Below, in pieces: positions 10,528 through 31,485 of a DNA stretch of 32,139 bases. The stretch spans positions 1 through 32,139 of the forward strand of contig JAJVHZ010000095.1 of assembly GCA_022072255.1 (NCBI GenBank), given 5' to 3'. Source of the DNA: Gammaproteobacteria bacterium (lineage in GTDB: Bacteria > Pseudomonadota > Gammaproteobacteria > JAJPIJ01). Below the pieces are notes generated by a model that worked only from the letters and a program-made list of their open reading frames with translations, was not told where the DNA came from and made no database searches. Both the position numbers and the translations under genes were made by a program. The stretch's first letter is position 1. Every line of letters starts with the position of its first letter.

Positions 10528-10535
10528 ACAGTGCG

Positions 10536-12941: not shown

Positions 12942-12955
12942 GAGAATACAGATAG

Positions 12956-13819: not shown

Positions 13820-13821
13820 TT

Positions 13822-16800
13822 ATGCCTGCAACGAAATTTGGGCAGCCCTGTTGGGAAGCCGGTAACATCGCTAAAGTCATCTCCACGGTCGCCCAACTGG
13901 ATGCCGAATACATTGATTATTTCCTCGCCACCCACGCCCCCATCAAACACATTCGTCACGACGAAACGCAGGAGTTGTTGAACGAAGAGCAATTTTTCCT
14001 GGAGCTAATGAAGCCGAGTCGCGGTGAAGTTCTGGCGGTAGTTCACGGCGATCCGGGGACCGGCAAATCCCATCTGATTCACTGGCTGAAGCTACGTTGC
14101 GAAGATGGCCTCACAAGACAGGAGCTTTCAAATTTGGCGCCGGTTCTGATCCAGCGTCGCACCGGGAGTCTCAAGGACGCGCTGGAACAGATGATTCAGC
14201 AACTGCCGCAAGATTTCGCTCATTACCTCACACCCGTTAAAAGCGCGCTTGAGAAGATCTCTGATCTTACGGCCCGCGACAAACTCGTCGGCGAACTCTA
14301 CCTTGAATTAGCAACCAGGCGGGCCGATCGTGGCCGCGCTCCGCTCCCGCGGCATCTACGCTATCTTCCGCAGGTCTGTGGCGGTTCAACTGGGTTTCGA
14401 CAGTGGCTATGCCGCGAGGCCGGAGTGATTGACCGCGTCATCAAACTTCTAACGCAACAAAGCGAAGTGGATGAGCGCGAGGGATTGCCCTCATTCGTCG
14501 AGCAGGAATTCAACCTCACCGAAGCCCGCTATAGAAATAAGGCGCGCAATACGGATGAGGTCTACGGCCTCATTGAAGACTTTCTAGATGAACCTTCATT
14601 GCGCGAGGAGGCAGCCAGTTACTTCAATGAAGTGCTGCCGGACGCCGTTAAAGAGATGACCGGCCTTGCCGGTACGAGGTTGCGTGATGTCTTTGATCAG
14701 ATTCGCGCCGACCTGAGAAGACAGGGGAAAGAGTTGGCGCTTTTCATCGAGGACGTTTCGGTGATGTCAGCGCTCGACGAGGAGGTCTTTGTCGCTCTAG
14801 AACCGCAGAAACGACAAGGCTTGTGCCGGATGATCGCCGTCGTCGGAGTAACCAACCAAGGGTGGAATCGCCTTCCGCATAACCAAAAACAACGCGTCAC
14901 GTATCCTGTTTCCATTGGCGGCCAGATGACCGACGAATGGTGCCGCGATCCGCGATCGGTGGCAGAGTTTACAGCGCGCTATTTGAACGCTCTGCGCCTG
15001 CCGCCTCAGGACGTTGGTGCGATAGCACATCACAGACGCAACGGCAGAGATGTGACCATTAGCGCTTGCGAGCGTTGCCCAGTGAGGGAAGAGTGCCATG
15101 GGATTTTCGGCGCGGTCGAGATCGAAAATTTGGACGTCGGTCTGTTCCCGTTGACCAACAGCGCTCCACAACGCCTGCTCAGCAACCTGCAAGAACATTT
15201 GAGAGATCGTCGGAATCAGCGCGGCTTGTTGGCGCATATCCTCCAACCAATACTCGACAAGGGGCATGAGGATTTGGAAGCAGAAACGTTCCCGAATTTT
15301 CCGATGGCGGTAGAGTCGCCGCCGCCGACATACTGGACGGGCTTTGAGGAAAGATTCTGCGGCGGGTGGAATCCGGGGGACAAAAAACGCCTGAAATTCC
15401 TGGCGCAGTTTTGGGTCGAAGCGCGCGACACTGATGAGGCCGTGGAAAAGTTGCAACCGTTTCTTGAGCCGCTCGGCTTTCGGGAGTTCAGCGCTGCAGC
15501 AGCCATTAAGCCAGTCAGCCCACGTCAAGCAACTGTCGAAAAACGCGAGCAGAAAACCACTCAGGAAACACCGCAGCAGGCTGAGCGTGAGAAACTCAAC
15601 GAATTACTCCACAATCTTGATAAGTGGATGGCCGGTGACGTGCTGGTGGGCGATCCGGAAGCGCGGGGAATGCTGGCCGACTTGATTCGCAAAGCTATGC
15701 CTTGGGACGACCATAGCTTTCCACCGCTCGAAGTATGGAAGACGCTGCTCGGCGAGGGATCGAACTACAAGTTCATAAACATTGAGGGGATGCGAAGCAA
15801 ACTGGTCGGCACGAAGTTTTCCATCCGTTTCGAGCGCACAAAAGAAACACGTGACTTGCTGGAAGCTTTGGCGCAGTACCAGTACGCCGGCGCCCGCTCT
15901 TGGAACTTCCCACACGGCGAGTTGCACAAGCGCACCGTCGCCGCATGGGTGCGAAAGCATAGCGAAGAAATCATCGGCCAGTTGCAACCGCCAAACGTGC
16001 TTGATACGAGAGCGCCGGTCGCTGGCGCAGTGCAGTTCTTGGCTACCTATGCGCTGATCGGGCGACGGGCCAAGCTGCCGCAAGAATTGCCCGAACTGGT
16101 AAAGACGCTGCTTGCCGATGGCCAAGACGAGTTGCCTGCCGCGTTGAGCAAAGAGTGGAAGTCGTTGGTTGAGGACCTGCGGATCAGGCGGCCTGAGATC
16201 AGGCGGTTTCTGCTCAGGGAGCTTGATATTCCGCAAGGCAGAAAGGCGCGCGAAATCAACTTCATCAATCCCTTGCCGATCATTCAGGAGGCCGCGGCTT
16301 ACACGAGCGACCCGAAGATTTCGCCGCCTGGCGATGAGTACCATCAAGACTTCTGGCAAACGCGCTACGATGTTTTTGAAAAGGCCGGCAGGTACTCAGA
16401 CCTTGCGGCGGCGCTCGATCTGGAGAGGTTGGCAATCAGCGATTTGGTGGAACGCATTGCCTCATCGCTGCATACTGCCGGTTACAGCGCCGGCAATCTG
16501 CCTGAAGCGCTCGCAAATTACTGCGCCGACCTCGCGGAGGTTCTTCAGGCGCTAAGAAAAGCCAAGTTCCCAGTGCCTGACAAGGACTTCGATGAACTCA
16601 TCAGGCGTAAGGTTTTCGTCGAGCGAAGAGAGGTTTGGATGACGGCCATCAGGGAGGCCCAAGAAGCCGCCGAGGCAGAGGACCTGATGTCGGTCATGCT
16701 CTTCGATCCGAAAAACCTGCAAGAGGCGAGCGTCTGTTTGACAGTGGCTGAAAAGTATCGCTCCGTTTTAGAGCGAGAGGTCGAGGCGAAATTGCGGCAC

Positions 16801-16887
16801 ATTGAACAAGAGGGAGACCCGGATCAGCTTGCCGCCGAACTGCTTCAGTCGCTTGAAGCGATTGCAGCGATAACCGCGGACAAGTAA
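13822..16887 (+). CDS. dpdH: DpdH: large P-loop ATPase of the Dpd system
   Basis: 1021-residue protein with a single clear P-loop, GDPGTGKS (76-83), in LAVVHGDPGTGKSHLIHWLK. A likely Walker B is LALFIEDVSVM (about 306-316), giving an AAA+/STAND-like ATPase in the first third. A cysteine group ACERCPVREECHG (Cys416, 419, 425) may bind metal. The remainder is long and helical, with several EAAA/EEAEAE-type coiled-coil stretches near the C-terminus, suited to assembly with partners. It starts two bases after dpdG without a clear ribosome site, suggesting coupling, and is followed 10 bases later by dpdI. The gene name follows operon order and the ATPase domain. The exact role in restriction is not known. 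Confidence 0.8.
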   Translation: MPATKFGQPCWEAGNIAKVISTVAQLDAEYIDYFLATHAPIKHIRHDETQELLNEEQFFLELMKPSRGEVLAVVHGDPGTGKSHLIHWLKLRCEDGLTRQELSNLAPVLIQRRTGSLKDALEQMIQQLPQDFAHYLTPVKSALEKISDLTARDKLVGELYLELATRRADRGRAPLPRHLRYLPQVCGGSTGFRQWLCREAGVIDRVIKLLTQQSEVDEREGLPSFVEQEFNLTEARYRNKARNTDEVYGLIEDFLDEPSLREEAASYFNEVLPDAVKEMTGLAGTRLRDVFDQIRADLRRQGKELALFIEDVSVMSALDEEVFVALEPQKRQGLCRMIAVVGVTNQGWNRLPHNQKQRVTYPVSIGGQMTDEWCRDPRSVAEFTARYLNALRLPPQDVGAIAHHRRNGRDVTISACERCPVREECHGIFGAVEIENLDVGLFPLTNSAPQRLLSNLQEHLRDRRNQRGLLAHILQPILDKGHEDLEAETFPNFPMAVESPPPTYWTGFEERFCGGWNPGDKKRLKFLAQFWVEARDTDEAVEKLQPFLEPLGFREFSAAAAIKPVSPRQATVEKREQKTTQETPQQAEREKLNELLHNLDKWMAGDVLVGDPEARGMLADLIRKAMPWDDHSFPPLEVWKTLLGEGSNYKFINIEGMRSKLVGTKFSIRFERTKETRDLLEALAQYQYAGARSWNFPHGELHKRTVAAWVRKHSEEIIGQLQPPNVLDTRAPVAGAVQFLATYALIGRRAKLPQELPELVKTLLADGQDELPAALSKEWKSLVEDLRIRRPEIRRFLLRELDIPQGRKAREINFINPLPIIQEAAAYTSDPKISPPGDEYHQDFWQTRYDVFEKAGRYSDLAAALDLERLAISDLVERIASSLHTAGYSAGNLPEALANYCADLAEVLQALRKAKFPVPDKDFDELIRRKVFVERREVWMTAIREAQEAAEAEDLMSVMLFDPKNLQEASVCLTVAEKYRSVLEREVEAKLRHIEQEGDPDQLAAELLQSLEAIAAITADK

Positions 16888-17590: not shown

Positions 17591-20500
17591 ATGTCCGTTA
17601 CTGGCTTTGTCAGCGAATTTTTGTCTTTCCTCGAACAGCAGGAGGCGCGTCTGCTCTCCTGGGGCTTTTACAACGTTTCGTTCGGAATCTCCGAAATTGA
17701 AGACTTGCTGGAGCAGGAGGCGCCGGACTCTCTCCTCGAAGCCTGGCAGGAGTTGCAGAACGGAGGCTGGACAATAGACCTGCTGGTGAGTGAGATGGAG
17801 TCCAGCAATCTGCTCTACCGGGTTGCTCCCGGCGAGGAGGTTTATCGAACGAGATTTGCCGAGGGAGTACGGCTGCTAGCGCGGCTGCGTCAGATGTTCA
17901 GACCGCAGGATTGGGCTACCGGCCCGAAGCTTGTTTCTGACATCAAACTCCATCTCGCCCCCAGACGTTACCCGCGCCGGGATCAGTCGGCAGCGGACTG
18001 CTGGAAGGATTTAGAGGAGATTTGCTGGCGGCGTGAACTGCAACGGACTGCATTCGATGCGCTGACAATGGGAAAAGACTCTCAGCCGCTGAATTTCTCC
18101 CGATTCCAACGCCAAGCGTTCAAAAACATTCTTAGTCGTTACCGAGGCAGAGGCTCAACTGGCTCGGTCATTAGCGCGGGAACGGGAGCGGGCAAGACAA
18201 AGGCCTTTTACATCCCTGCATTCCTGGGCGTGATGGCCGAACTCTCGCCGAGGCATTCGCTGCAGCAGTCAGCATTTACAAAAATCATTGCCATTTATCC
18301 TCGGAACGTTCTGCTGGCCGATCAACTCCGCGAGGCCCTCTCTGAGGCTTCGAAGCTGCGCCCTGTGATTGAGCATTTCAGGCTGCGCCCGCTTACCTTC
18401 GGAGCCTTGTTGGGCACGACAGCTGAAGAGCGATGGTTCAATCCTAACGGCGATGGCAAGTATGAAGCTGAGCGGCGGAACTGGAAGCGAGTTGGCAATG
18501 GCTTTGTCGTGCCCTTCGTCAAATCCCCGATTGACCCGAGTCAGGACCTCGTCTGGCGCGATGAGGACAGGCAGCACGGCCTGACCGCCCTTTATCGAGC
18601 GGACGGCTCGGCTCAGGAGCCGGACGTCCCCGACGGCACGTTAGCTCTCACACGTGAGCAGCTCAAAACCAATCCACCGGACATACTTTTCCTCTCGGCG
18701 GAAATGCTTAACCGCGAGATGGGTAATCCTGAATGGGCGCGCACATTTGGCATTGGCATGCGCGAACGAGCGCCGCGCCTCCTATTGCTCGATGAGGTAC
18801 ATGCCTACGAGGGAATCCACGGCGCACAGGTCGCATGGGTGTTGCGCCGGTGGCGATACTGGAGCGGCGCGCGCGATCTTCATGTGGTAGGACTTTCGGC
18901 TACGCTGAAAGAAGCGCCGAAGCATCTCGGATTGGTAACAGGCATCCCTGCCACCTCGATCCAGGAGTTCACTCCGGCCGACAGCGATCTGACAATGGAG
19001 GGGATGGAATATAACCTTGCCATCAAAGGAGACCCGGCTTCCGGCGGCAGCCTGCTCGCCACCTCCATTCAAAGCGCCATGCTGCTCACGCGTTTGTTGA
19101 CGCCGAGAAACCTGCCGCCGGCGCGCCGCGCGGGCGATGCAATCACGTCGTCGGCCTTTTACGGGCGCAAGGTCTTCGGTTTCACGGACAACCTGGACGG
19201 CCTGAATCGCTGGTACTCGGATATGAACGATGCTGAGAGTAACAAGTGGCTGGCTAGGTTGCGTCTGCACCCGCAACAACGCCAGCCTGCGGCCAACCTC
19301 CCGGCTGCGATCATCCGCCGGATGGACGAGGAAGGGCAGATCTGGGAACTGCCCAGACGCTTAGGGTATAACCTGAACCAACCGCTGGTCGTTTCCCGAT
19401 GTAGCTCTCAGGACCCCGGTGCAAACGTGGGTTCGGACTTAATAGTGGCGAGCGCCAGTCTGGAAGTCGGATTCGATGATCCGGAAGTCGGGATCGTTCT
19501 ACATCACAAACGCCCCGTCTCAATCTCATCCTTCATTCAGCGAAAGGGACGCGCCGGGCGCCGTGTCGGCACGCGGCCATGGACAGTAGTCGTGCTTTCT
19601 GATTACGGCGGCGACCGCTGGGCCTTCCAGAATGCGGAGCGCCTGTTCCAACCGGAAATTGAGACGATTTTTCTACCTATCACGAATCCCTATGTTCTGC
19701 GCATTCAGGCGACATACTTTCTGGTAGACTGGCTTGGTCACCGGATTGCGAATGGCAGCCCATTCAATTACCTGTCGCGGAGCCAGCCGGGGAATGCCGC
19801 GCGCAGAGCCATTGAGATACTCAAAGACTTCATCAATCTTGGCGCCGAATGGCGCAAATTCAGGAACGATTTCGCTCGCGCTTTTGGTCGGCCATATGGC
19901 GCCGGCGGGAGAAAATTCAGTGATGCGGAACTCGACGCGATTTTTTGGCAGTCGCCGCGCCCCGTGCTCCGCCACGCCGTGCCAACTCTTTTACGGAAAC
20001 TGGAAGCAGGTTGGCGTTGCGCCAACCCTCAATTGAGCGGACAGACTGAGGATCGAGGCGCGAATCGCCCGCTCCCGCAATTCCTGCCGCAAGCCACATT
20101 CGCCGAACTCGGTGGTTCCGACGTACGACTCAGCTTTTCTGACCAAGCCGGCAAGGATGATGAATACCTGAACGTATCGCGCGCGCTCTTTGAGGCCTGT
20201 CCGGGGCGCGTTTCCAAGCGTTATGCCACCCGTGTCGGGGAGGAGGGCTACTGGCTTGCCTTCTCGGAGCAGTTGCTGCAACGCGTTGGTGACTCAGCCG
20301 CACCCATTAGCGCGCTCTTTCCGGACCGCCTCTTCCTTGAAAACACTGATGGCGTCGCCATCTACCAGCCGCAGGCAATTGAATTACGGCATCGGCCTAA
20401 CCAGGTGCTGGATACCAGCAACGCTTCCTGGAACTGGCAGAGCCGTATTCAAGCACTCACGCCCGGCTCCAGACTTGCTATTTTCGCAGGCGGGCCGTGG

Positions 20501-22177
20501 AGCGATGTAGTGAGCCATTGTGAAGTCCACCTTCATCGCGACCAATCCGGCATCAGCGTTTTGCGTCACGCCCGCTCGTGTGACTACGAGTTACGCCTCC
20601 AGCGCGGGATATCCAGCCGGGGCAGGCTGACGCTGGCTGCGAGCGACGATGGTGGTACCGTCGTGCCGGAGGCGGTCGGGTTTCAACTCAACGTGGACGG
20701 TATTGCCCTACACCTGAAGCGCGAACACCTTCAGAACGTGGTAGACGATGAAGCCTCTCGCCGGTCCCGCTTTCGCCCGGATTACTTTCTGGATCGGGTC
20801 AGAGCTTCTGAAGTTCTGAGAGAGCGAATGAGCATTTTTCTTGCGGATTGGCTATGGCAAACCAGCATGGCTATGCTGGCGGCGACGGCGCTACGGCAAC
20901 AGTGTTCGCTGGAAGAGGCGCAACAGAGGTTGACCGGGTTGCGGGAGCAGGCGGCCAGGCGCGTACTCGATACGATCTTCCAATTTCAGGGCATTGATCA
21001 GCAGGGCGATCCGCGACTGAAAGACAGGATTCTCGACCAGTGGCGTGATCCCATTATGTTGGGTGAAATGGAGACTCTGGAAATGACACTCTGGGCAAGC
21101 CCGGATGCCGGTTATCAGGAATGGGTGCGACGACGCTACGTTGCCTCGCTGGCGCAGGCATTTCGCGCAGCGGCGGTTAGCCGATTGAATGAGGTTTCGG
21201 AAGATGACCTCATGGTGGACGTCGTATGGACAGCAGAAGGCGACGCGGAAATTTACCTGACCGAAACGAGTTCCGGCGGGCTGGGGCAAATTGAAATGAT
21301 CGTTCATGAGCTGAAGCAATCACCCGAAGCTTTCCTCGAGGGCTTGCGCCACGCCCTCTCTTTTTGCCCCAGGCATTTCATTGCTGACAATTTGTTAGCA
21401 GTGTTGAGGCTAGTCAATTCCGCGACGGAGCAAGGAAGTCAACTGAGCGGTGCTTTTGCTCAGGTGCGCGCAGCACAAGGATTCCAGGCACAGGACGAGG
21501 CACGGCGCAGGCTCCGAGCTACGCTCGAAGAGATCGGGTTGGCCTCCTCGCGCGCGGTAGTGGTGGCGTTAGTTACCAAACTCCTGCGCGCAGGAAGCTC
21601 GCCGCGCACCGACGTTATTCTTCACTTGCTCAACCGCGCCTGGCGGCGGCGCGAGGAAAGGCTCGGCCTCTCTATTGATCCGCGCGTGTTCGCTTACCTG
21701 TGCGTGCAATACCCACCCGCGCAGCGACGACTGAGGCAACTTTTCAGAGAAGTCAGTGGCGGAGAGGATCCGGATGATGCGCAACTCTACGCCGTACTTC
21801 AGCAGTTTCTCCTGCCCGGCTGCGAGGATAGTTGTCCTGTATGCCTCGATCAGTCACACCGCTATCACGATTTTGGCCGCCCGTCGCGTTCGCTGGCAAC
21901 AGACCAACTCAAGTTCAGAATACATGAGGTAACGGTAAACGAGCACCCCGACGACTGGCTTGACCTCGTGCGACAGCGGCTGTTGAGTGATTCCGATTTG
22001 CAAGTCGTCGTCGACAGTTCGCGGCTTGCGGCCGTAGCCAGGGAAATACAGGGATTGCTCGCTGAAGAGTTGGAAGCAGGATTCCTGTTGCGCCCGGCTT
22101 CGATTGCCGGCGTCAGGCGTGAAGGCGCTGACTGGAAAATACACCTTCAGCTCAAGGGGGTGAACTATGGCGCTTGA
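17591..22177 (+). CDS. dpdJ: DpdJ: very large SF2 helicase of the Dpd system
   Basis: 1528-residue DExH helicase. Motifs in order: SRFQRQAF (Q-like), Walker A GTGAGKT (about 198-204), DEVH (401-404) in LLLDEVHAYEGIHGAQV, GLSATLKEAPKHLG, ASASLEVGFDDPEVGIVLHH, and motif VI QRKGRAGRRVG (about 649-659). The segment after the helicase core is long. Near the C-terminus CEDSCPVCL (about 1411-1419) followed by H/D residues resembles the zinc site of DUF1998-type helicase C-terminal domains (MrfA, DrmB). This suggests kinship with helicases of DISARM-like systems, by inference. The dpdJ end overlaps dpdK by 11 bases. All motor motifs are intact. Confidence 0.87.
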   Translation: MSVTGFVSEFLSFLEQQEARLLSWGFYNVSFGISEIEDLLEQEAPDSLLEAWQELQNGGWTIDLLVSEMESSNLLYRVAPGEEVYRTRFAEGVRLLARLRQMFRPQDWATGPKLVSDIKLHLAPRRYPRRDQSAADCWKDLEEICWRRELQRTAFDALTMGKDSQPLNFSRFQRQAFKNILSRYRGRGSTGSVISAGTGAGKTKAFYIPAFLGVMAELSPRHSLQQSAFTKIIAIYPRNVLLADQLREALSEASKLRPVIEHFRLRPLTFGALLGTTAEERWFNPNGDGKYEAERRNWKRVGNGFVVPFVKSPIDPSQDLVWRDEDRQHGLTALYRADGSAQEPDVPDGTLALTREQLKTNPPDILFLSAEMLNREMGNPEWARTFGIGMRERAPRLLLLDEVHAYEGIHGAQVAWVLRRWRYWSGARDLHVVGLSATLKEAPKHLGLVTGIPATSIQEFTPADSDLTMEGMEYNLAIKGDPASGGSLLATSIQSAMLLTRLLTPRNLPPARRAGDAITSSAFYGRKVFGFTDNLDGLNRWYSDMNDAESNKWLARLRLHPQQRQPAANLPAAIIRRMDEEGQIWELPRRLGYNLNQPLVVSRCSSQDPGANVGSDLIVASASLEVGFDDPEVGIVLHHKRPVSISSFIQRKGRAGRRVGTRPWTVVVLSDYGGDRWAFQNAERLFQPEIETIFLPITNPYVLRIQATYFLVDWLGHRIANGSPFNYLSRSQPGNAARRAIEILKDFINLGAEWRKFRNDFARAFGRPYGAGGRKFSDAELDAIFWQSPRPVLRHAVPTLLRKLEAGWRCANPQLSGQTEDRGANRPLPQFLPQATFAELGGSDVRLSFSDQAGKDDEYLNVSRALFEACPGRVSKRYATRVGEEGYWLAFSEQLLQRVGDSAAPISALFPDRLFLENTDGVAIYQPQAIELRHRPNQVLDTSNASWNWQSRIQALTPGSRLAIFAGGPWSDVVSHCEVHLHRDQSGISVLRHARSCDYELRLQRGISSRGRLTLAASDDGGTVVPEAVGFQLNVDGIALHLKREHLQNVVDDEASRRSRFRPDYFLDRVRASEVLRERMSIFLADWLWQTSMAMLAATALRQQCSLEEAQQRLTGLREQAARRVLDTIFQFQGIDQQGDPRLKDRILDQWRDPIMLGEMETLEMTLWASPDAGYQEWVRRRYVASLAQAFRAAAVSRLNEVSEDDLMVDVVWTAEGDAEIYLTETSSGGLGQIEMIVHELKQSPEAFLEGLRHALSFCPRHFIADNLLAVLRLVNSATEQGSQLSGAFAQVRAAQGFQAQDEARRRLRATLEEIGLASSRAVVVALVTKLLRAGSSPRTDVILHLLNRAWRRREERLGLSIDPRVFAYLCVQYPPAQRRLRQLFREVSGGEDPDDAQLYAVLQQFLLPGCEDSCPVCLDQSHRYHDFGRPSRSLATDQLKFRIHEVTVNEHPDDWLDLVRQRLLSDSDLQVVVDSSRLAAVAREIQGLLAEELEAGFLLRPASIAGVRREGADWKIHLQLKGVNYGA

Positions 22178-22721
22178 GCAGGAGTTCCGCCAGGCGAGCC
22201 GTGATGTATGGTCGCACGGCAGCGGGCAGCAGTTGCGTGACCTGCTGGCTTCATCTCTGAGCACCCTGCTGCTGCTCGAAGGAGAGAAGCACGCATATTT
22301 TTCCAGCCCCTGGGTCTCCGACTTCGTCCTCTTCGAAAATCATTTCGGCCAGTTCAGCGCGCTCTTTCCTGAATTCGGCGATCAGACCGAAATCCGATTC
22401 AGCGATTACCTAGTCTGTTTGGCGAAAAAACTTCCGGTGAGGATCATCACGACCAGCAGCGAGGTCTCTGCCAGTTTTCGTAGTCACCTGGAACTTCGTT
22501 CTTCCGCGCCTATCCAGGTGCGAACCGCGCCGGACGAGTATCACGAGAAAGGCATTCTCGCGCCGTCCTTCTACATCGAGGGATCGATGAATATCACTTA
22601 CAGCGGGGTTTACGTCAGAGGGGAAAAAGTGACCTATCACTCGGCCGGAAATCCGCAGGGAGCAAGCAAAATTTCCGCCGCTTACCTGGAGTATGACCGC
22701 CGTTGGAGCATCCTGAAATAA
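22167..22721 (+). CDS. dpdK: DpdK: phospholipase D-fold protein of the Dpd system
   Basis: 184 residues with a single PLD half-site: His126-x-Lys128 (YHEKG) and Gly139-Ser140-x-Asn142 (EGSMN). One half-site is normal for PLD-fold nucleases that work as dimers (Nuc, BfiI). The aspartate usually found five residues after the lysine is replaced, with Pro133 there. The earlier segment HAYFSSPWVSDF matches the first strand of the PLD fold. The start overlaps the dpdJ stop by 11 bases, so it is translationally coupled. This is the most nuclease-like protein of the standard Dpd set and the natural candidate for cleaving DNA that lacks 7-deazaguanine, but no such activity can be read from sequence alone. 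Confidence 0.82.
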   Translation: MALEQEFRQASRDVWSHGSGQQLRDLLASSLSTLLLLEGEKHAYFSSPWVSDFVLFENHFGQFSALFPEFGDQTEIRFSDYLVCLAKKLPVRIITTSSEVSASFRSHLELRSSAPIQVRTAPDEYHEKGILAPSFYIEGSMNITYSGVYVRGEKVTYHSAGNPQGASKISAAYLEYDRRWSILK

Positions 22722-22732
22722 AGAGTCTGTCT

Positions 22733-24931
22733 ATGCTCACACCAGATCAAATCACCTTGCTGCGCCGGTTACAAGGCAATTGGCCGAAGGACCTCCAACT
22801 AACGTTTGATGAGCAGAACAGACCGGATATTGCCGAGCATCCACTGGCCGGCGAACTACTGGCGCTGAGCCGCAGTGAGCGCGCGTCACTTCCATTTTTC
22901 ACCCCCAACCGCCCAGACCGCATCATCTGGCTGACGATTGCGCCCAATGCAGAAGAGCTGCAGTCGGCGATGGCGGACCTGCGCGCATGGCTGTTGCCCA
23001 GTTTCGGCTGGGAAGATGAGCCGCCAATCGTCGCACCGGGAGAATCTTCAGGCCCGTTGAGCGAAGTGCTGCGCGCGCTTTCGCCAGCAGGTTATTTCCG
23101 CTGGTGGACGATGCGGACTGAATTCAGCCGCGCGGTCGGCAAACTTCGCGCGCTGCGCGACCTCGAGCAGAGTCGCCCGGCGCACGCCCACGCACGGCCT
23201 CCCTCACTCTTCGATTTGCGGCAGCAATACGATGTGGCGTTGCTGACGGGCGATGTTGAGGCGGCGCAGGAGGCGATTGACGGCATCAACCTTCATCAAC
23301 TCGATACGGCGGCCAACACGTGCTTTATGCAGTTGCGCCTCTGGGACCATTTCCGGGAGTACGAACGCATCGTCACTCACCCGCAACTTGCAGAATTGGT
23401 TCGGTTGCGCATGCCGCACAGCATCCGTCTGGCCGTCATACGCGGCTTCCACGCGCACTTTCTTGCGCCGCTGGAAGAGCGCGAGGAGGTCCAATCTGCC
23501 GCGAGCGTCTACGCTGAACGTGTTAACGACTCCTTGACAGGGTTACTCGAACTTTGCCGCCCCTCGGACGGGATTGAGGCCAGGCGATGCATCGGCTATA
23601 AAGCCTGGCTTTTGCAGGATGGAAATCAGGCAAGACAGTTGCGCGAGGATTTTCAAGACGAAGTGCTCGATCAACTCCTTGCGCCGCTCACCTTGCCCGA
23701 AACTCTCCAGCCTTCAATTCTGGACTATTTTTACAACGCCCTCCGGCGCGGCGACTGGAGAGCCGTTCAGGAGGCCGGGCAGCAATTGCTGCTCGAAAAG
23801 GTCGAGGGAGAAGTTGGTGTCGGGCGGGAGCATTTGCAGGGCGTCTTGCGCCTCAGCCTGGAATTCCACGCTAATCCCGGCCTTTGTGAATTGCTTGGAA
23901 AATCCCCGCTGCCATCCGCGCCTGTACCGGTTCTGGTCGTTCCGCAAACGTGGCCGGAGTTTGTAGCACGGATCAAAGAAAAAGAATGGTCGGGCGCAGA
24001 CCGCTTCTTGACTCTGGATAACAGACCCTCACTCGGCGATTTAAGTCTGCCTGAACTGAGCCAGGTGATCGAAGTTTTGGAAGAGTTGCTGACCGACCCT
24101 GACATCCACCGTGATCAGACTGGTCACCAGTTGGCGCTCGGCAGCCTGCCAGTCATCATCAAAGACTTCCTCCTGGATCCTGAATTCCCGCGCCCATACC
24201 TCAGCAATGTGTATCGCCAACTGCTTCAACTCTGGTGTGGACAGAAGCGTGGCTCGGCTTCACCGCCTGACGCCAATCTCGTGTTGACATTGGCAGAGGC
24301 AGTATTGCGGCTCGACAGCACATCTGAGCGCGAAGTAGCGGAGGTAATCCGCGACTGGTGGGCGGCGCGCAGAGCGCGCGTTATGTTGCCGTTCCTCTTA
24401 AGTGGGCTGGATATCCTTTCAGAATTGACCCCTGAAAGGATTGTCACCGAAAGTCTGTGGGTGGATGGCGCGGCTCTCATCCGCCTTGACCCGCTTGCCT
24501 TTTCCCTCGGAGAGCGACAATTGTGGCGTGTTATCGGCAGCCGCATCGGACTTGATGAGAGTACGATCGATGATTTTCTCGGCATTGAATCAGCGGTTGA
24601 GAATGAAGAGCCTGACCCTCTGGCGGAAGCCGGTTTGAAGAAGGTGGCCATTGTTTCGCTGCGCGAAGAGGCGGCACACGCGGCTGCGGCGCTGATCGGG
24701 CAGCGGTCAAAAGCGCAGGTGCTGGTGGTGAGCGAAACGCACGCCGGCGTCCAGACCGCAAGCGCCAAGACCGCGGACGTTATCCTTTTTGTATGGGCCA
24801 GCAGCACTCACGCTGTTTATCGCGCCTTCGACGGAGTGCGAGAGAAATTGTCATACGTTCAAGGCAAGGGGGCAGCCAGTATCGTACTCGCTCTCGAACG
24901 TTGGGTGATAAAACAGCAAGAATCCACGTGA
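22733..24931 (+). CDS. dpdD: DpdD: Dpd system protein of unknown function
   Basis: 732 residues from ATG 22733. An in-frame TTG at 22703 inside dpdK would add ten residues, but the ATG 11 bases after the dpdK stop is favoured. The body is leucine-rich and helical, with TPR-like stretches (for example residues 150-330). The last 100 residues look like a small alpha/beta domain (KVAIVSLREEAAHAAAALIG..., ADVILFVWASSTHAVYRAFD..., YVQGKGAASIVLALERW) resembling sensor or DUF2325-like Rossmann domains. That comparison is my impression only. It is the last gene of the restriction operon and converges on the endonuclease gene with only 29 bases between stops. The name follows size and its place beside dpdK. 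Confidence 0.72.
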   Translation: MLTPDQITLLRRLQGNWPKDLQLTFDEQNRPDIAEHPLAGELLALSRSERASLPFFTPNRPDRIIWLTIAPNAEELQSAMADLRAWLLPSFGWEDEPPIVAPGESSGPLSEVLRALSPAGYFRWWTMRTEFSRAVGKLRALRDLEQSRPAHAHARPPSLFDLRQQYDVALLTGDVEAAQEAIDGINLHQLDTAANTCFMQLRLWDHFREYERIVTHPQLAELVRLRMPHSIRLAVIRGFHAHFLAPLEEREEVQSAASVYAERVNDSLTGLLELCRPSDGIEARRCIGYKAWLLQDGNQARQLREDFQDEVLDQLLAPLTLPETLQPSILDYFYNALRRGDWRAVQEAGQQLLLEKVEGEVGVGREHLQGVLRLSLEFHANPGLCELLGKSPLPSAPVPVLVVPQTWPEFVARIKEKEWSGADRFLTLDNRPSLGDLSLPELSQVIEVLEELLTDPDIHRDQTGHQLALGSLPVIIKDFLLDPEFPRPYLSNVYRQLLQLWCGQKRGSASPPDANLVLTLAEAVLRLDSTSEREVAEVIRDWWAARRARVMLPFLLSGLDILSELTPERIVTESLWVDGAALIRLDPLAFSLGERQLWRVIGSRIGLDESTIDDFLGIESAVENEEPDPLAEAGLKKVAIVSLREEAAHAAAALIGQRSKAQVLVVSETHAGVQTASAKTADVILFVWASSTHAVYRAFDGVREKLSYVQGKGAASIVLALERWVIKQQEST

Positions 24932-24960: not shown

Positions 24961-25944
24961 TTAGACCGCGTCCTCTTGGAATAGCAGAAGCTGCCGGCTG
25001 CTTGGTATTTTTCCTGAAAAGTATTCGACGAAATCAGGGAAGTCTGCCTCAACTATTCGCATCCAAGGACGATCTGGTAATAAAGGATCAAGCATCCGGT
25101 TAAGCTTTCCTCTGTCGATAAGTTTGATAATCATTCCACATTCACTAGCTCGACCTATAGCTTCATAAGCTCGGTATGTGAAGTGGTCAGCCGTAGAAAC
25201 GACAATTCCATAACTGGAATTTTCAAGCAGCATTGTGCCAAGGAGATTGCGGACAGTACTTATCCCTTCTGCGGAAGAAGGTTTTTCCCTGCGCTTTACT
25301 TGAATCAGCCATTTCTGTTTAGCAGAGTCTATAAAAAGAACATCAATACCTCCATCATCAGGCTTCCCCACATGAACTACTTCCGAATCACCATAATTCG
25401 TTTTGAATATATCAGCGACTAGCTTTTCAAGTCGGCGAGGATCAATCGTATGCCAAAGCATAGGGCTTCTTCTGATGTATTGAGTAAATTCTTCTAAACA
25501 ACCTTCAGGTAACGTTTCGTCAAACGCTAGAACTTTTGATATATGACTTCGATAGTCATGGTCAAAAAGGATGCCTCTGTCTCCGATTTCGCTTCTCAAG
25601 TAATGCCAGCGCCAGTACATACAATTAGAGCAGTGTTCCAGGCAGCCTAAAAGGCTATTAGGCTCTTCAAGCAGTCCAAGCTTGTCAAAGTCCTCCTCCA
25701 TTGTTTTTATGTGCTTTATCAATTTGAGTGAGGCTTTACAATAAGGACAAACTGTACTTACTAAGGGGAATTCGATTGCAGGCTCGTCGCTGCGGATAAA
25801 TCTATTTATACTCTGTTTGAAATGATTTCGGAATAACCGAGGGCTTGCAGGGTCAAATACAAGTCCGCCAGTGGGCACTTGGTAGGCCCGAATTGATAAC
25901 TGGTCGTAATATGCCGAAGCCAAATTGTCACCTGATTCAAGCAT
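24961..25944 (-). CDS. Mrr-type restriction endonuclease with N-terminal zinc ribbon
   Basis: 327 residues. The C-terminal half carries an Mrr_cat-like PD-(D/E)XK nuclease: Glu173 in RRLEKLVADIF, Asp201 in DDGGIDV, Gln215-Val-Lys217 in LIQVKRRE, then GIVVSTADHFT. All catalytic positions look intact. The middle holds a zinc ribbon, Cys66/69 with Cys105/108 and Trp/Tyr residues. Mrr-family enzymes cut DNA, often in response to base modification. It is the last gene of the - strand operon, 40 bases after the second dpdB, with no clear ribosome site. Base use is markedly AT-richer than its neighbours: by hand count 23 G+C of 60 at 25081-25140 and at 25501-25560, against 32 of 60 at 24181-24240 in dpdD. 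That points to recent acquisition. It is not part of the standard dpdA-K set. Confidence 0.82.
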   Translation of the reverse strand: MLESGDNLASAYYDQLSIRAYQVPTGGLVFDPASPRLFRNHFKQSINRFIRSDEPAIEFPLVSTVCPYCKASLKLIKHIKTMEEDFDKLGLLEEPNSLLGCLEHCSNCMYWRWHYLRSEIGDRGILFDHDYRSHISKVLAFDETLPEGCLEEFTQYIRRSPMLWHTIDPRRLEKLVADIFKTNYGDSEVVHVGKPDDGGIDVLFIDSAKQKWLIQVKRREKPSSAEGISTVRNLLGTMLLENSSYGIVVSTADHFTYRAYEAIGRASECGMIIKLIDRGKLNRMLDPLLPDRPWMRIVEADFPDFVEYFSGKIPSSRQLLLFQEDAV

Positions 25945-25984: not shown

Positions 25985-27175
25985 TTATTGATCCACGCTG
26001 TCATGAAACAAGGCGGGTTGCGAATTGACTTCTTTCTTCACCCCTCTACTCTCCTGATTCCAGACCAAGCTCTTATATTGCACCAGCAGGTAATTTGAGA
26101 GCAGTTGGATATCCTTGGACGTATTTTGAATCTCGTTCCACTTGCGTTGGCAGCCGGGGCCGAAGTTCCAGTAGCCGTCAGTCCACCGGCAGAGTTCCCG
26201 CAACGGTTCAAGGTCAGCGGCGAATTGATTTTCGGTTGGAATAGTCATTCGGCGATGGCGCTCAGCTATGGCATCCATCAGAAACCCTAAGCTGATGATT
26301 CCCGCTCCATGAACCAATCGGGAGCGGCGCGGCGGCAAGCCCCACGCCTGATCGAACACCTTCCTGACTGCCCCCCAGAAGTTCCGCAGTACATTCATAA
26401 TACTGTCTACGTCACCAGGGCCGTCCGGCGTGTAACGAAAGCGATAGAGAACTCCGTCGCTCAGGCTGTTCTCCAGCATCTTGAGAATGGAATTGTCCTT
26501 GATATCTCCCAGCGGCGCGGTCGGAGTCTGGATACGCCCTTTGAGCGGAGAGTCTTCTTCGTGGTTGAGCAGGTCAAGCAGGTAAGCAGGGAAACGACGG
26601 CGCTCGAGCAGGCTCGGCAGCGCGGCTTCGGTGTTCGGGAGCAGTTCGTAAATCAGCCCCTTCGGCAAGGGTTTGGTGGAGTTGACCAGAATAAATTGCT
26701 CCGTCTGCTCACGGACTTCGCTGGTGATGAACGCGGTAACGCAAATCGGGAACGATTCAATTTCAGCGTCGCGAATTGCGGCCAGACGCTGCTGGCCGTC
26801 CACGATGAAGCCCGGCTTGTCTTCGGCTGCAAGGCTGGTGTCAACCGGAATGACAAGAGAACCGACTCTCGTGTAAGAGGGCGAGGCGGCAAAGTCTGCG
26901 GATGGCTCAAATCGGACGCTGGTGTCGAAGGCAACTACGACGGCGTTGGGAACCATCGGGGACTCGCTTTCGAGATAATTCCTGATCTCCGCTATGTGGG
27001 AAAGCACCTCCGGGCGCTGATACCCGCTCAGGCCTTTTCCATCCTCTCGACGGATGCGAGAGATGGTTGCGAAGGAGGAGATCAGCTTGCCATCGATGGC
27101 AAAACTGTAGAGCAGACGATCCCCTCCCTGCCTTACTTCGATTGCCGGCACTCTTAACTCAGTCAGACCTAACAT
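25985..27175 (-). CDS. dpdB: DpdB-like DGQHR-domain protein, copy 1 (downstream of dpdA)
   Basis: 396 residues of the DndB/DpdB DGQHR family. The signature is FIVDGQQRLAAIRD (Asp126-Arg130), with GYQRPEV (51-57) before it and LVNSTKPLPKGLIYELLP after it. DpdB helps DpdA insert preQ0 into DNA. This protein is a clear paralogue of the other DGQHR gene in the same operon: the signature falls at the same residue numbers and the same blocks recur in the same order. It starts 32 bases after dpdA, with AGGGGGA ahead of the ATG. Which of the two is the true functional DpdB cannot be told from sequence; a regulatory role like that of DndB is another possibility. Confidence 0.78.
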   Translation of the reverse strand: MLGLTELRVPAIEVRQGGDRLLYSFAIDGKLISSFATISRIRREDGKGLSGYQRPEVLSHIAEIRNYLESESPMVPNAVVVAFDTSVRFEPSADFAASPSYTRVGSLVIPVDTSLAAEDKPGFIVDGQQRLAAIRDAEIESFPICVTAFITSEVREQTEQFILVNSTKPLPKGLIYELLPNTEAALPSLLERRRFPAYLLDLLNHEEDSPLKGRIQTPTAPLGDIKDNSILKMLENSLSDGVLYRFRYTPDGPGDVDSIMNVLRNFWGAVRKVFDQAWGLPPRRSRLVHGAGIISLGFLMDAIAERHRRMTIPTENQFAADLEPLRELCRWTDGYWNFGPGCQRKWNEIQNTSKDIQLLSNYLLVQYKSLVWNQESRGVKKEVNSQPALFHDSVDQ

Positions 27176-27206: not shown

Positions 27207-28469
27207 TCATACGGTCACTACTTTGCTTCCTGCCCTGTCTTCGCCGAGCACTTCCAGTTCACGCTGCAATCTTCGGTAAAAGACCCAGACGTTATGAAGT
27301 CCGCGGCGGCGGTTGCGCTCGGCCCCGCGAAAGAGAATGACGTGGTAGCCGATACTCCGGCAAACATCGCAATGGCAATGTGACCATGGACGGTCAGTCA
27401 GCACTTCCCGATAGACTTCCCGCATGTCCCGCTCCGGCTGGCAAAAGTTGTCATAAGCGACCACCGCTTCAAGAGCCTGTTCGAGAGGGCATTCCCCAGC
27501 AGCGAACTTTTTCAGCGACGCAAGACAGGACTTCTCAAGCTGCCGGGCGCGATCCTGTGACACCTGCCCCGATTTGATTCGCTTCTGTAATTGCGGATTG
27601 CCTTCCACTTGCGGGACCCGGACGGCCGTGTAAGTGCGATCAAGGGTGTAGTAATTGTCTTTATCGTCCTTAAACGCTCGGCGCAGCGGCGAGGTACTGT
27701 CAAAGCTTGCCACTCCGTAGCGGGCGAAGGCCTCCAAGTGATCCGTGCGCGTCACGCCGAGCAGATGAAGCTTTGTTTCCGGCTTCCTTACATCGGCAAT
27801 CGCAACCAGGCAGGAGATGATTTCCTTTGTCTTCAGCGGCACCATGCCGCCGAGTGCGATATAGGTGTAGCCCATCTGCTGGAGCGCCTGAACGGCGCGT
27901 GCATAGGACAAAGGGCTCCATCCCTGTGCAACGCCGACAGGCTCGAATTCGGGTTTGATTGCACGATGCCTTGCTAGAAACTCCGAAGCCAGTTGGAGAG
28001 TGATCTCCAGGCGGAGCCGAAAATCTGAGGGAACCGCATCTGGAGCCTCATCGAATTTGGGTTGGTACGCTAGGATCACGTGATCAACCGAGATTCCGAA
28101 GTCGAATGCACACTCGACGTAAAATTGCATTACCTCGTCCACCGTGTAAGGCGGAACTGCCTCGCGTACGTAGGTGAAAGCCCCGCAATCTCCCATTATC
28201 GGAAGATTACGGGGGTCGGTCCTGAAAAATTCCGGTGCGCCAACTCTTAACAGCCTGTGCCGCTGGGCCATCGTGTAGCGGCTGCTGCCGTTGCCATAAC
28301 CGTCGACGATCCCTTTGGAAACAAGTAGTCCGTCGTAGACTGTCGATGAAAACACTTCGTGGGCGTACAGATCATCACGATGCCGTACGCGGTCAGGAGA
28401 GCGGCTCTCCCTTTCGAAGTCGAAACTCGGATCAACAAAATCCTGACTGTCCGGGAAAAAGAATTTCAT
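27207..28469 (-). CDS. dpdA: DpdA: DNA-guanine transglycosylase (TGT-like)
   Basis: Replaces guanine in DNA with preQ0 and is the key enzyme of the Dpd system. 420 residues from the ATG at 28469, which shares one base with the upstream stop (TGATG), so translation is coupled; a TTG one codon earlier is possible. TGT hallmarks are visible: MGDCGAF with Asp94, the VAQGW...Y and ALGGMVPLKT segments of the base pocket, SFDSTSPLR with the likely nucleophile Asp257, and a zinc site Cys365-x-Cys367-x2-Cys370 with a later histidine (probably His392, RGLHN). Compared with tRNA TGT the sequence is diverged as expected for DpdA, and the operon of two dpdB-type genes and a dpdC candidate supports a DNA substrate. 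Confidence 0.94.
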   Translation of the reverse strand: MKFFFPDSQDFVDPSFDFERESRSPDRVRHRDDLYAHEVFSSTVYDGLLVSKGIVDGYGNGSSRYTMAQRHRLLRVGAPEFFRTDPRNLPIMGDCGAFTYVREAVPPYTVDEVMQFYVECAFDFGISVDHVILAYQPKFDEAPDAVPSDFRLRLEITLQLASEFLARHRAIKPEFEPVGVAQGWSPLSYARAVQALQQMGYTYIALGGMVPLKTKEIISCLVAIADVRKPETKLHLLGVTRTDHLEAFARYGVASFDSTSPLRRAFKDDKDNYYTLDRTYTAVRVPQVEGNPQLQKRIKSGQVSQDRARQLEKSCLASLKKFAAGECPLEQALEAVVAYDNFCQPERDMREVYREVLTDRPWSHCHCDVCRSIGYHVILFRGAERNRRRGLHNVWVFYRRLQRELEVLGEDRAGSKVVTV

Positions 28470-29614
28470 CAACTGGCCTTCCGTTTGTTGAGGTATGTGC
28501 GAATCAAAAAGTTCGACAGCATGCGAAGGTGAGATGGCACATTCTGAATTTCATTCCAACGCAACCCGCCCAACTCCTCCCACACGCCGCTGGTCCAGCG
28601 GCAGAAAGGCCGAATGCGCCCAAGTTCACGTTTAACCACTGCCTGAGCCTTGGGAGCCTCCAGGTCAACCATCGGCATCACCCTATCCATCAGCCGACCC
28701 ATCGCACGAATTCCGGCTCCATGCATGAGGCGGCTCTTCTCCGGACGCAACCCCCAAGCCTCTGGGAACGTGTCTCTGACGGCGCTCCAGTAGGTGATGA
28801 GCAGCGTACGGACGCTTTTAAAATCAGTCACGCCCGTCGCCACGTTACGGAAGGGGAAGAGCACACCGGAGGGTGAGCTGAAGCTTTCCTGGAGCATCTT
28901 GATAATGACAGTATCCGTCACTACGGCATTCTCCAGTTTCGACGCGCTGGTCGAGGCTCTCCTGATTAATCCATGGAAAGGGGACTCGGGATCCAGATTG
29001 AGTTGCTCACAGAGCGCCGATGGAACTTTGCGAGCCGCTAGGTTAGCCGGCAGGATGGTCGAGACTTCTGGTAACAACTCGTCAATCAGACCGCGCGGGA
29101 GCGGCCTGGTGGTATTGACTCTCAGAAACTGGTCGCGCTGCAGGTCCAAGTCGTCCGCCACGAAGGCGTTGACGGGAACCGGGAACCCGGTTTTTTTCTT
29201 CTGACTTTGCGTCAGCGCCAAGGTCCGTTGCTGCCCGTCCACAATCCAAGCTGGTTTTGTTTCGCCCGGCTGGGGCAGCGGTATTTCCAAAGTGCCGGTC
29301 ACGGCCCCACCCTTATCCACCTTCGGGCCACGGCTTTCTCTGAACACCACGTCAGATGAAAGAGCCAGAATGACAGAGTTTGGAAAGATCACTTTCCCGC
29401 TGTCCAGATACTCGATGATGTTCTGAATGTGGCGCTTGACTTCGGGGCGCTGGTATCCGATCAATTTCCCTTTCTCATCACGGGAGACGCGGGAGATGTC
29501 GGCGATCTGAAGGATCTCATCACCGCTCAGGGAGAAGAGGTATAGCGGGTGTGCGGGGTCTTGATCAATCCGCAGGGCGCGCCGGCGGAGCAGTGCAGGG
29601 CGCTTGATTTTCAT
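28469..29614 (-). CDS. dpdB: DpdB-like DGQHR-domain protein, copy 2 (upstream of dpdA)
   Basis: 381 residues with the DGQHR signature WIVDGQQRTLALTQ (Asp126-Arg130), GYQRPEV (53-59), and FLRVNTTRPLPRGLIDELLP. It is a paralogue of the gene at 25985-27175: both share SR..RDEKGK/REDGKG, GYQRPEV, the DGQQR block, N(S/T)T(K/R)PLP(K/R)GLI.ELLP and an ending with PFCRWT(S/D)G.W. It overlaps the upstream gene by four bases (ATGA), has a strong GAGGAGG ribosome site inside that gene, and is coupled to dpdA through TGATG. The tight link to dpdA makes it the better candidate for the DpdA partner. Known DpdB is reported to be required together with DpdA for dPreQ0 in Salmonella. Confidence 0.82.
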   Translation of the reverse strand: MKIKRPALLRRRALRIDQDPAHPLYLFSLSGDEILQIADISRVSRDEKGKLIGYQRPEVKRHIQNIIEYLDSGKVIFPNSVILALSSDVVFRESRGPKVDKGGAVTGTLEIPLPQPGETKPAWIVDGQQRTLALTQSQKKKTGFPVPVNAFVADDLDLQRDQFLRVNTTRPLPRGLIDELLPEVSTILPANLAARKVPSALCEQLNLDPESPFHGLIRRASTSASKLENAVVTDTVIIKMLQESFSSPSGVLFPFRNVATGVTDFKSVRTLLITYWSAVRDTFPEAWGLRPEKSRLMHGAGIRAMGRLMDRVMPMVDLEAPKAQAVVKRELGRIRPFCRWTSGVWEELGGLRWNEIQNVPSHLRMLSNFLIRTYLNKRKAS

Positions 29615-30576
29615 TGGCAGCCTCCTCTGACCTCCCAGTAAAGTTCCTTGAACCTGCTTTGCTCACATGCCAACTTCCTGGCTCTCAACTTTCTCAGGAG
29701 CGCGCTGCAACTCGGCTGCGGAGCGCGTTTCAGGCCGGACTCCAAAAATTTTCGCACCTGGTCGTCTGTCATGCGCTTACGTTGCAATTTCGGTATCTCG
29801 GGCGCGCGCTTAATTAATGCCTCAACTCGCTTTCCGACGGCTTCGGCATCGAAGCCCCATGAACTTACCTTGTTCAGAATCAGCGATGCGACTCTTGCAT
29901 GCAGCGAGACACAACTGCCTCCGAGCCTGGGCTGCAAACGTGTACTGGAAATAACAGCATGGTCACGCAGCAGACCATTGGTTAACTTGCAAGGTGAGGT
30001 CACAACCATCAATCGGCCAGGCGATGCGAACGCCGACAGCGCGGCCTGCAAATCCTTTTCAGCTGCCGCCAGATAATGCGGTGATGCGACCAGCAGAAAA
30101 TATGACCGTCCGGAGTCCAATAACAACTCAGCCAAAGAGCGCGACTCATCCTTTCCTCCGCCCGCAAACTGGCACAAACTGTCCCACCACGTCTGAAGCA
30201 TCGTCTCGCGCTCTTGTGCTGACTGCCCGGTAATAACAACAGAATCCGGTTCAGCGCTCGCGAAGGTAGCGGAATAGGGGTGGATACGGGCATTGGCCGG
30301 GATCAGTCCGTACCCGGCGGACATTACCCAGAGCCTGGCCTTAAATCCGGCATCGCGGGCCAGTTCGGGCAATTCTCTGGCGATGGCCCAGTGCTCTCCG
30401 GCATATAAATCCTCCACCGCGACCCTTGGCCCCCGATGCCGCACCAACCGGCGGCGCCACTCTTTGACCCTACCCTCCATGCCGGCGGCCGCTATGGACC
30501 GGAGTCGAAGATCGTCTGATACCAAGGCGGTTTTGCGGTTGGTGCAGTTCACAATGATTTGCAGCGACGGTTTCAT
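29611..30576 (-). CDS. dpdC: DpdC candidate: YaaA/DUF6884-like protein
   Basis: 321 residues. The N-terminal 220 residues have the pattern VNCTNRKT (10-16), YAGEHWAIARELPELA, LWVMSAGYGLIP, HPYSATFA and later VVTSPCKLTNGLL. This is the 'small-molecule/base-handling' pattern shared by YaaA and DUF6884-type proteins that are often found with 7-deazaguanine genes. DpdC converts preQ0 in DNA to amido-7-deazaguanine. Position just upstream of dpdB-dpdA, with a four-base ATGA overlap, fits that role. The C-terminal 100 residues are basic and helical (RAPEIPKLQRKRMTDDQVRKFL, cut here), apt for DNA binding. I am fairly sure of the link to the Dpd pathway but less sure of the DpdC name, since I could not align it to a reference. 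Confidence 0.6.
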   Translation of the reverse strand: MKPSLQIIVNCTNRKTALVSDDLRLRSIAAAGMEGRVKEWRRRLVRHRGPRVAVEDLYAGEHWAIARELPELARDAGFKARLWVMSAGYGLIPANARIHPYSATFASAEPDSVVITGQSAQERETMLQTWWDSLCQFAGGGKDESRSLAELLLDSGRSYFLLVASPHYLAAAEKDLQAALSAFASPGRLMVVTSPCKLTNGLLRDHAVISSTRLQPRLGGSCVSLHARVASLILNKVSSWGFDAEAVGKRVEALIKRAPEIPKLQRKRMTDDQVRKFLESGLKRAPQPSCSALLRKLRARKLACEQSRFKELYWEVRGGCQ

Positions 30577-30687: not shown

Positions 30688-31485
30688 TTAACGCTGTCGC
30701 TGCCACTCGACCTCGGCGAAGGCGTTGTGGTTGTGAATGCTTTCCTGATTCACGGCTTGAACCCTGAACCAGTCAATGCGGTCGTTGGCCCGCAGTTCAA
30801 CGGCGACGTTCCTCACCATGTCTTCGACGAACACCGGATGGTCATAGGCATGCATCGTGACATGTCTTTCATCTGCGCGTTTGAGAAGCGGATACACCGG
30901 AGAGGACGCTGATCGTTCGGCGATTTCGATGAGTTCCTCAATCCAGATCATTTGGTGTCCCCCATCACTTGAGGGCAAGCTGCGCACCTCAATACCGATA
31001 TATCCGCGTTGATTGTGTGCGCCATAATCGCTGATTGCCTTACTACAGGGGCAGAGGCTGGTCACTGGAACCCGAACCCTCAAGGTGAAATCATTTCTGT
31101 TGCCATTCACTTTCCCAACGAAAGCGCACTCGTAATCCATCAGTGCTCTGGCTCTACTTACTGGCGCTGTCCGTTCAAGAAAGTATGGGAAACTGACCTC
31201 CAGACTGGCGCTCTCTGCCTCAAGGCGTTCCCGGACGGCGTGCAGAATTTTTGGGAGAGTCCGCATCGTCACCTCACCGCGGTGTTCATTTAGTACCTCG
31301 ATGAAGCGGCTCATATGCGTGCCCTTGAAGTCATGGGGGAGGCTAACAGACATCGCTAAGTTGGCGATTGTTTCCTGCCTTCCCCGTTCCCTGTCATAAA
31401 CAACTATTGGATAACGGAGGTCACTGACCCCGACCTTGTTGATCGGAATGAGCCGATCATCCTGATGATTTTGAATATCGTCCAC
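30688..31485 (-). CDS. folE2: GTP cyclohydrolase FolE2 (type IB)
   Basis: Opens GTP to 7,8-dihydroneopterin triphosphate, the first step shared by folate and preQ0 synthesis. 265 residues, the usual length. Diagnostic features of the metal-flexible GCYH-IB family are present: KGTHMSRF with His57, VTSLCPCSKAIS with Cys145/Cys147, NQRGYIGIEV and the terminal NQESIHNHNAFAEVEW. The GTG start has a good GAGGTG ribosome site (complement of 31490-31495). It leads the - strand operon, 111 bases before the dpdC candidate, so it most likely raises precursor supply for DNA modification. It may equally be the cell's general enzyme, but position inside the island favours a dedicated copy. Confidence 0.93.
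   Translation of the reverse strand: MDDIQNHQDDRLIPINKVGVSDLRYPIVVYDRERGRQETIANLAMSVSLPHDFKGTHMSRFIEVLNEHRGEVTMRTLPKILHAVRERLEAESASLEVSFPYFLERTAPVSRARALMDYECAFVGKVNGNRNDFTLRVRVPVTSLCPCSKAISDYGAHNQRGYIGIEVRSLPSSDGGHQMIWIEELIEIAERSASSPVYPLLKRADERHVTMHAYDHPVFVEDMVRNVAVELRANDRIDWFRVQAVNQESIHNHNAFAEVEWQRQR

Follow-up and report, generated by a model that had tools for sequence, protein, structure and literature searches.

The window analysed here, a whole contig of 32,139 nucleotides, carries a near-complete Dpd locus as judged from NCBIfam and PADLOC profile matches. The order on the plus strand is QueC, DpdE, DpdF, DpdG, DpdH, an open reading frame without match, DpdJ, DpdK and DpdD. On the minus strand FolE2, DpdC, DpdB, DpdA, a second DpdB and finally a nuclease gene follow one another. 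The features are these:

6373..7089, plus strand: QueC, preQ0 synthesis (TIGR00364, 201.1 bits)
7291..16887, plus strand: DpdE, DpdF, DpdG and DpdH (DpdF above the NCBIfam cut-off; DpdE, DpdG and DpdH below)
17591..22177, plus strand: DpdJ helicase (NF041067, 1180 bits)
22167..22721, plus strand: DpdK, PLD-like, with H126-x-K128 and GSMN (NF041068, 105.1 bits)
22703..24931, plus strand: DpdD (NF041061, 181 bits, below the cut-off of 300; PADLOC DpdD, E = 5.9e-119)
24961..25944, minus strand: zinc-ribbon Mrr-type PD-(D/E)XK nuclease gene, the ribbon being putative (ATG start, 327 aa; PF04471 match)
25090..25449, minus strand: Mrr_cat domain of the nuclease, residues 166-285 with E173, D201, Q215 and K217 (PF04471; coordinates computed from residue numbers)
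25621..25749, minus strand: part of the nuclease gene from C66 to C108, putative four-Cys zinc ribbon (coordinates computed from residue numbers)
25985..27175, minus strand: DpdB paralogue 2 (NF041060, 486.9 bits)
27207..28472, minus strand: DpdA transglycosylase (NF041059, 578.9 bits)
28469..29614, minus strand: DpdB paralogue 1 (NF041060, 426.2 bits)
29611..30576, minus strand: DpdC (PADLOC DpdC, E = 7.4e-76)
30688..31485, minus strand: FolE2 GTP cyclohydrolase, preQ0 synthesis (NF010200, 291.4 bits)

The nuclease gene lies 40 bp past the second dpdB, and its stop codon and that of dpdD converge at a distance of 29 bp. A preliminary description of this DNA had placed an Mrr-type gene at the end of a modification operon in a dpd context. 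The exact open reading frame is indeed the final gene of the minus-strand modification operon, and since a near-complete Dpd locus surrounds it, the context was right. Compared with the dpdA-K set (NCBIfam NF041059-NF041068), the gene sits within such a locus at the dpdB2/dpdD junction, but it matches no Dpd model, in agreement with the earlier statement that the standard set includes no Mrr nuclease, and it is missing from most dpd records examined. The two DpdB paralogues flank DpdA, and this dpdB-dpdA-dpdB order is found in most of the dpd loci fetched.

DpdK is described as the PLD-family endonuclease of the dpd cluster in the accessible part of PMC5567051. We considered the nuclease as a substitute for a broken DpdK and rejected this idea, as H126, K128 and GSMN are all preserved in the DpdK of the window, just as in four further DpdK proteins. 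Because the PLD residues (HxK, GSxN) are retained, the nuclease is an addition and no replacement.

The nuclease matches Mrr_cat over residues 166-285 with 62.6 bits against a curated Pfam cut-off of 21. The catalytic residues E173, D201, Q215 and K217 are present in the Q-x-K form of the PD-(D/E)XK motif, and C66, C69, C105 and C108 are found in the N-terminal part. The pattern CxxC...CxxC-x2-W suggests a putative four-Cys zinc ribbon. We aligned ten members of the family. They share an N-terminal four-Cys putative zinc ribbon, a linker and an Mrr_cat domain with a QVKRR motif, and the residues C66, C69, C105, C108, W111, E173, D197, G199, D201, Q215, K217, R219, E226 and G236 are invariant in all ten. 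Thus the catalytic residues and the four cysteines named beforehand are present and conserved throughout, with the ribbon itself deduced from the pattern. Left out of the alignment were H3 and H4 (match figures the same as H2), H6 (Priestia, 34% coverage), G133 (not fetched), G037 (L065; one weak match) and a broken copy from Hymenobacter.

The fold model of the nuclease is poor (mean pLDDT 48.9) and usable for part of the catalytic core only; the zinc-ribbon region has a pLDDT below 50, too poor to show a fold. The top Foldseek match of the model is EcoT38I (E = 1e-4), which supports the PD-(D/E)XK core only, and the best sequence match among solved chains is RPA12 with E = 0.24. At E ≤ 0.1 the Pfam models on the protein are Mrr_cat, Mrr_cat_2 and a plant B3 model. 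Mrr_cat is the sole Pfam domain above its cut-off, and no modification-reading domain was recognised; likewise a Pfam search found no regulatory or sensor domain. The NCBIfam families gave no match, and PADLOC gave only weak PDC-S02 matches (best E = 1.6e-5) and no Dpd model. Promoter and terminator counts at the gene equal the shuffled level. With E. coli-type Mrr (PF04471) the nuclease shares the catalytic domain and the Q-x-K motif. The canonical E. coli-type enzyme is defined by an N-terminal winged helix, Mrr_N. The window nuclease instead has the four-Cys putative zinc ribbon N-terminally, and Mrr_N is not among its Pfam matches at E ≤ 0.1.

The G+C content of the gene is 0.431 (GC3 0.384) as compared to 0.581 for DpdD and 0.554 for DpdB2, so that the much lower value noted earlier relative to both neighbours is real. 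It is the lowest of the 20 open reading frames measured in the window, the other 19 ranging from 0.506 to 0.598. The Dpd island has a G+C of about 55% and the host of about 66%. In a host sample of 20 stretches of 20 kb each (400 kb, G+C 0.66), none of the 245 open reading frames of at least 200 aa has a G+C of 0.431 or less. These steps in G+C suggest two layers of foreign DNA, the Dpd island within the host and the nuclease within the island. Each of the four further intact close copies likewise has a G+C below the average of its locus (0.513/0.58, 0.532/0.587, 0.553/0.586 and 0.527/0.637). The low G+C is therefore a habit of the family as well as a sign of capture. The nuclease is not always the lowest: open reading frames with equal or lower G+C are 5 of the 22 others in the Agrobacterium vitis locus and 2 of the 11 others in a prophage.

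At two other dpd loci the junction is closed up. In an Enterobacter plasmid (L035) dpdB ends at 22366 and the converging dpdD at 22390, with a gap of 23 bp and no nuclease between them. In the genome G102 (L062) dpdB2 ends at 12858 and an open reading frame with DpdD matches at 12869, again with no nuclease in the gap of 10 bp. Flanking direct repeats that could mark an insertion were limited to short, chance-like ones. Taken together, the composition, the closed-up dpdB/dpdD junctions elsewhere and the fact that the gene is no part of the dpdA-K set support a capture of the nuclease by the Dpd island well. The preliminary description had spoken of a recent capture; for its being recent only the composition speaks.

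We searched 72,556 plasmid records by tblastn for DpdA (E ≤ 1e-20) and for the nuclease (E ≤ 1e-5). DpdA was found in 17 plasmids and the nuclease in six, and a single record, A. vitis pUnnamed2, is common to both. There the match covers 79% of the nuclease query with 41% identity and converges on dpdD with 95 bp between. It is also the sole one of the six plasmid matches that covers about 80% of the nuclease. The chance that one of six matches in 72,556 records strikes one of 17 dpd records is about 1 in 700. That nine of the 17 dpd plasmids lack the nuclease was read from tblastn of the whole record and not from a fetched locus. In A. vitis the stretch from the modification genes to the nuclease (L032:10315-14697) also contains a pair of IS5 transposases, one additional DGQHR protein and an AT-rich HNH gene (G+C 0.476), an arrangement reminiscent of an insertion hot spot.

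An exact-peptide pattern scan of genome contigs gave a single match, the genome of Neorhizobium galegae. Its locus reads DpdC-DpdB-DpdA-DpdB-QueC, a HAD gene, the nuclease (9926-10825) and an open reading frame at the dpdD position (10974-13241, minus strand). The latter matches no Dpd model; together with DpdK and DpdJ it converges on the nuclease. The nucleases of these two Rhizobiaceae dpd loci are 41-47% identical to the window protein and lie at the same place, converging on dpdD. The two copies are 87% identical to each other and are counted as one lineage. Thus, the search for the same insertion in other dpd loci, as the preliminary description had proposed, was positive, and such loci are rare.

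In 299 genomes of the phylum DpdA is above the cut-off in three and a family match (E ≤ 1e-8) is found in five; both occur together only in the window's own genome. Among 397 genomes from the order to which N. galegae belongs, three have DpdA and three a family match (E ≤ 1e-10), and here the N. galegae genome alone has both. A search of the class (369 genomes) and of the 56 nearest relatives of the host returned only the window's own genome; among the 176 genomes of the family of N. galegae only the latter matched. Dpd-positive records that had not been chosen for the nuclease carry it in one of 17 plasmids and in none of four genomes (G102, G178, G381, G583). A profile of the ten members was run on 17 stretches (the window, 14 from dpd-positive records and two with Ssp genes, some of which do not reach dpdD) and matched only in the window, A. 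vitis, N. galegae and the two Ssp loci. The phage records contained no nuclease match, and neither did the E. coli genomes in a DNA search with the nuclease gene. The pattern scans of genome and viral contigs demanded exact short peptides and returned few loci, which is why absence in these scans means little. The nuclease is a rare accessory of dpd loci which recurs independently of the window, and because it is rare among dpd records, Dpd can do without it.

The literature searched, whose coverage was partial, yielded no description of dpd loci with an Mrr nuclease. A survey that covers 2,335 unique dpd windows assigns dpdA-C to synthesis and dpdD-K to restriction and mentions HNH endonucleases; the accessible main text, supplementary tables aside, contains no word starting with "nuclease" (PMC11888242). 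A Cas4-like PD-(D/E)XK nuclease near tgt genes appears in the available portion of PMC5567051, and a table in the accessible part of PMC12707154 places Mrr and Dpd in different islands.

The family is not exclusive to dpd loci, as two copies are linked to Ssp, one of them intact and the other broken, and a third lies in a prophage. In the IMG/VR contig 3300031111_000528 a relative with 43-45% identity is the last gene of a phosphorothioation operon, the closely spaced row SspB-SspC-SspD-helicase-HATPase-ORF326-Mrr. The Ssp matches are strong (SspB, E = 9.8e-104; SspC, 5.7e-161; SspD, 5.5e-91), the helicase has PbeA-like matches, the HATPase is MzaB-like, and an opposing serine recombinase follows the nuclease. 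Models of SspE and SspFGH are not among the matches of the open reading frames scanned in this contig. SspE and SspFGH are likewise nuclease effectors next to an SspBCD marking module, but they are different genes, and the Ssp relative of the window nuclease comes with a helicase, an MzaB-like ATPase and ORF326. The notion that this relative is the only candidate nuclease of the contig was dropped, as ORF326 has a PLD-type HLK...GSAN pattern; against the DpdK profile ORF326 gave no significant match (hhalign probability 3), and Pfam lists nothing for it. The operon (L044:5423-9814), with helicase, MzaB-like ATPase and ORF326 ahead of the nuclease and no known Ssp effector model, is possibly a new Ssp effector set. 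The broken copy is a 111-aa open reading frame on a Hymenobacter plasmid (L033:9962-10559; profile E = 2e-28) that adjoins SspA, SspB, SspC and a PAPS reductase.

A further relative (36-42% identity) lies among prophage genes (VapE, polymerase A, portal) in IMG/VR 2844571421_000002. Apart from a weak DrmD/DpdE helicase match, PADLOC found nothing of Dpd or Ssp in the eight open reading frames scanned there, one of which is the nuclease. Remoter kin share 23-29% identity; their neighbours include a RecQ-type helicase, a HARE-HTH protein and a CHAT protein, an OLD-TOPRIM ATPase with UvrD and a plasmid Rep gene, and one such relative is found in a Tolypothrix plasmid. At L064:4394-10384 the remote member is about 1 kb from the OLD-TOPRIM ATPase and UvrD pair, which we take to resemble Gabija. 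Since the prophage copy has no marking system among the flanking open reading frames scanned and the remoter kin adjoin other genes, the family can exist without either Dpd or Ssp. The preliminary description would have been contradicted by a nuclease that is widespread outside dpd loci and has no effect on Dpd-dependent restriction. This applies in part only: kin do occur outside dpd loci, but the close family is rare in all sets searched.

With two outgroups in the tree, the five intact close members are a single clade (100/100). Inside it the nearest partner of the window copy is the Ssp copy, though with weak support (81/84). The three dpd sequences are grouped in 0% of the bootstrap trees, and the AU test does not reject their grouping (p = 0.09). 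Separate captures of the dpd copies appear to be favoured over a single origin. This tree, in which the dpd Mrr genes are not one clade, would also suit a hitch-hiker, that is, an unrelated defence gene which settled in a tolerated gap where two operons converge and which is functionally unconnected with Dpd. The sporadic presence and the foreign composition of the nuclease would be explained as well, as would the HNH gene and the two transposases in the A. vitis stretch. We nevertheless regard a mere passenger as unlikely, because the best match among 72,556 plasmid records was located in a dpd plasmid, of which there are only 17, with junction and orientation as in the window, and because a relative also ends an Ssp operon.

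We tentatively suggest that the nuclease is an accessory restriction effector of Dpd, a mobile enzyme predicted to cut non-self DNA without reading the 7-deazaguanine mark. This is possible, if somewhat less than an even matter. A rare mobile Mrr nuclease with a putative zinc ribbon has been captured by the Dpd island between the modification and the restriction operons. It would then cut DNA which Dpd treats as non-self, alongside DpdK as the standard candidate nuclease. The choice of target could come from the helicases and ATPases of the system, or the host mark might simply block cleavage. The nuclease is probably blind to the mark, because its family accompanies marks of two unrelated kinds and a search of the window protein revealed no modification-reading domain. 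In particular the Ssp kin, which accompany an unrelated backbone mark, would argue against a nuclease tuned to 7-deazaguanine.

The known Mrr enzymes are Type IV enzymes: in the accessible parts of the sources, Mrr restricts 5mC- and 6mA-modified DNA (PMC5567051) and Rv2528c is named as another such enzyme (PMC11279042). The window protein could accordingly be a self-sufficient Type IV enzyme against foreign marks in methylated or hypermodified phage DNA, which would cover phages missed by the restriction of unmodified DNA and would leave the dADG and dPreQ0 of the host alone. The close relative living alone in a prophage fits such an enzyme. However, Pfam finds no modification-reading domain in the nuclease, and a mark-dependent enzyme would have to tolerate both host marks with which the family occurs. 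We consider this alternative rather unlikely.

A parallel to an accessory effector is found in the Dnd loci of phosphorothioation, where, according to the accessible text of PMC10853773, varied and exchangeable endonucleases accompany the marking module and are commonly placed directly downstream of the modification genes or at the locus edge. The window nuclease is similar in this respect, but that paper concerns Dnd, and neither "Dpd" nor "Mrr" occurs in the accessible portion of its main text. The same text proposes that standalone nucleases at Dnd locus edges are back-up suicide nucleases. By analogy, the window nuclease might degrade DNA indiscriminately when a phage inhibits the main Dpd machinery, and its boundary position and standalone architecture fit these edge nucleases. 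Yet the Ssp copy lies inside an operon and not on the other strand, and no regulatory or sensor domain was found in the nuclease; such a role seems improbable.

As kin are found at the same place in dpd islands and also in Ssp, the accessory effector proposed here may be an interchangeable cutting part. A more far-reaching version, which we think doubtful, is that a mobile mark-blind nuclease plugs into the Dpd base-mark and the Ssp backbone-mark systems alike and has repeatedly entered Dpd islands at one docking site, the junction of the modification genes and dpdD. A nuclease with a recognisable catalytic residue (K217) in Dpd offers a direct handle on restriction. If it is true that the same nuclease serves Ssp, this would suggest that marking and cutting modules are swapped between unrelated epigenetic defences.

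Some other genes of the locus deserve mention. The open reading frame at the dpdI position (16898-17584, plus strand, 228 aa) has no NCBIfam match and only weak similarity to ZorA (E = 4.6e-4) and, in Pfam, to bestrophin (E = 0.077). At the edge of the locus (56-2851, plus strand) lies a UvrD-type helicase that carries a PD-(D/E)XK domain (PDDEXK_1, E = 4.2e-14) fused to its C-terminus; L037 (13850-14986) and L040 (16570-17583) also have UvrD-like genes close to the dpd genes, in L040 together with a PDDEXK_1 gene of its own. Between 3055 and 5953 on the plus strand a small open reading frame with weak ubiquitin-like/YukD matches (E about 0.004) is followed by two without Pfam match. In Sinorhizobium americanum an E2-ThiF-JAB protein is encoded near dpd genes (L036:6552-8813), and some dpd islands may have a link to a bacterial ubiquitin-like module.
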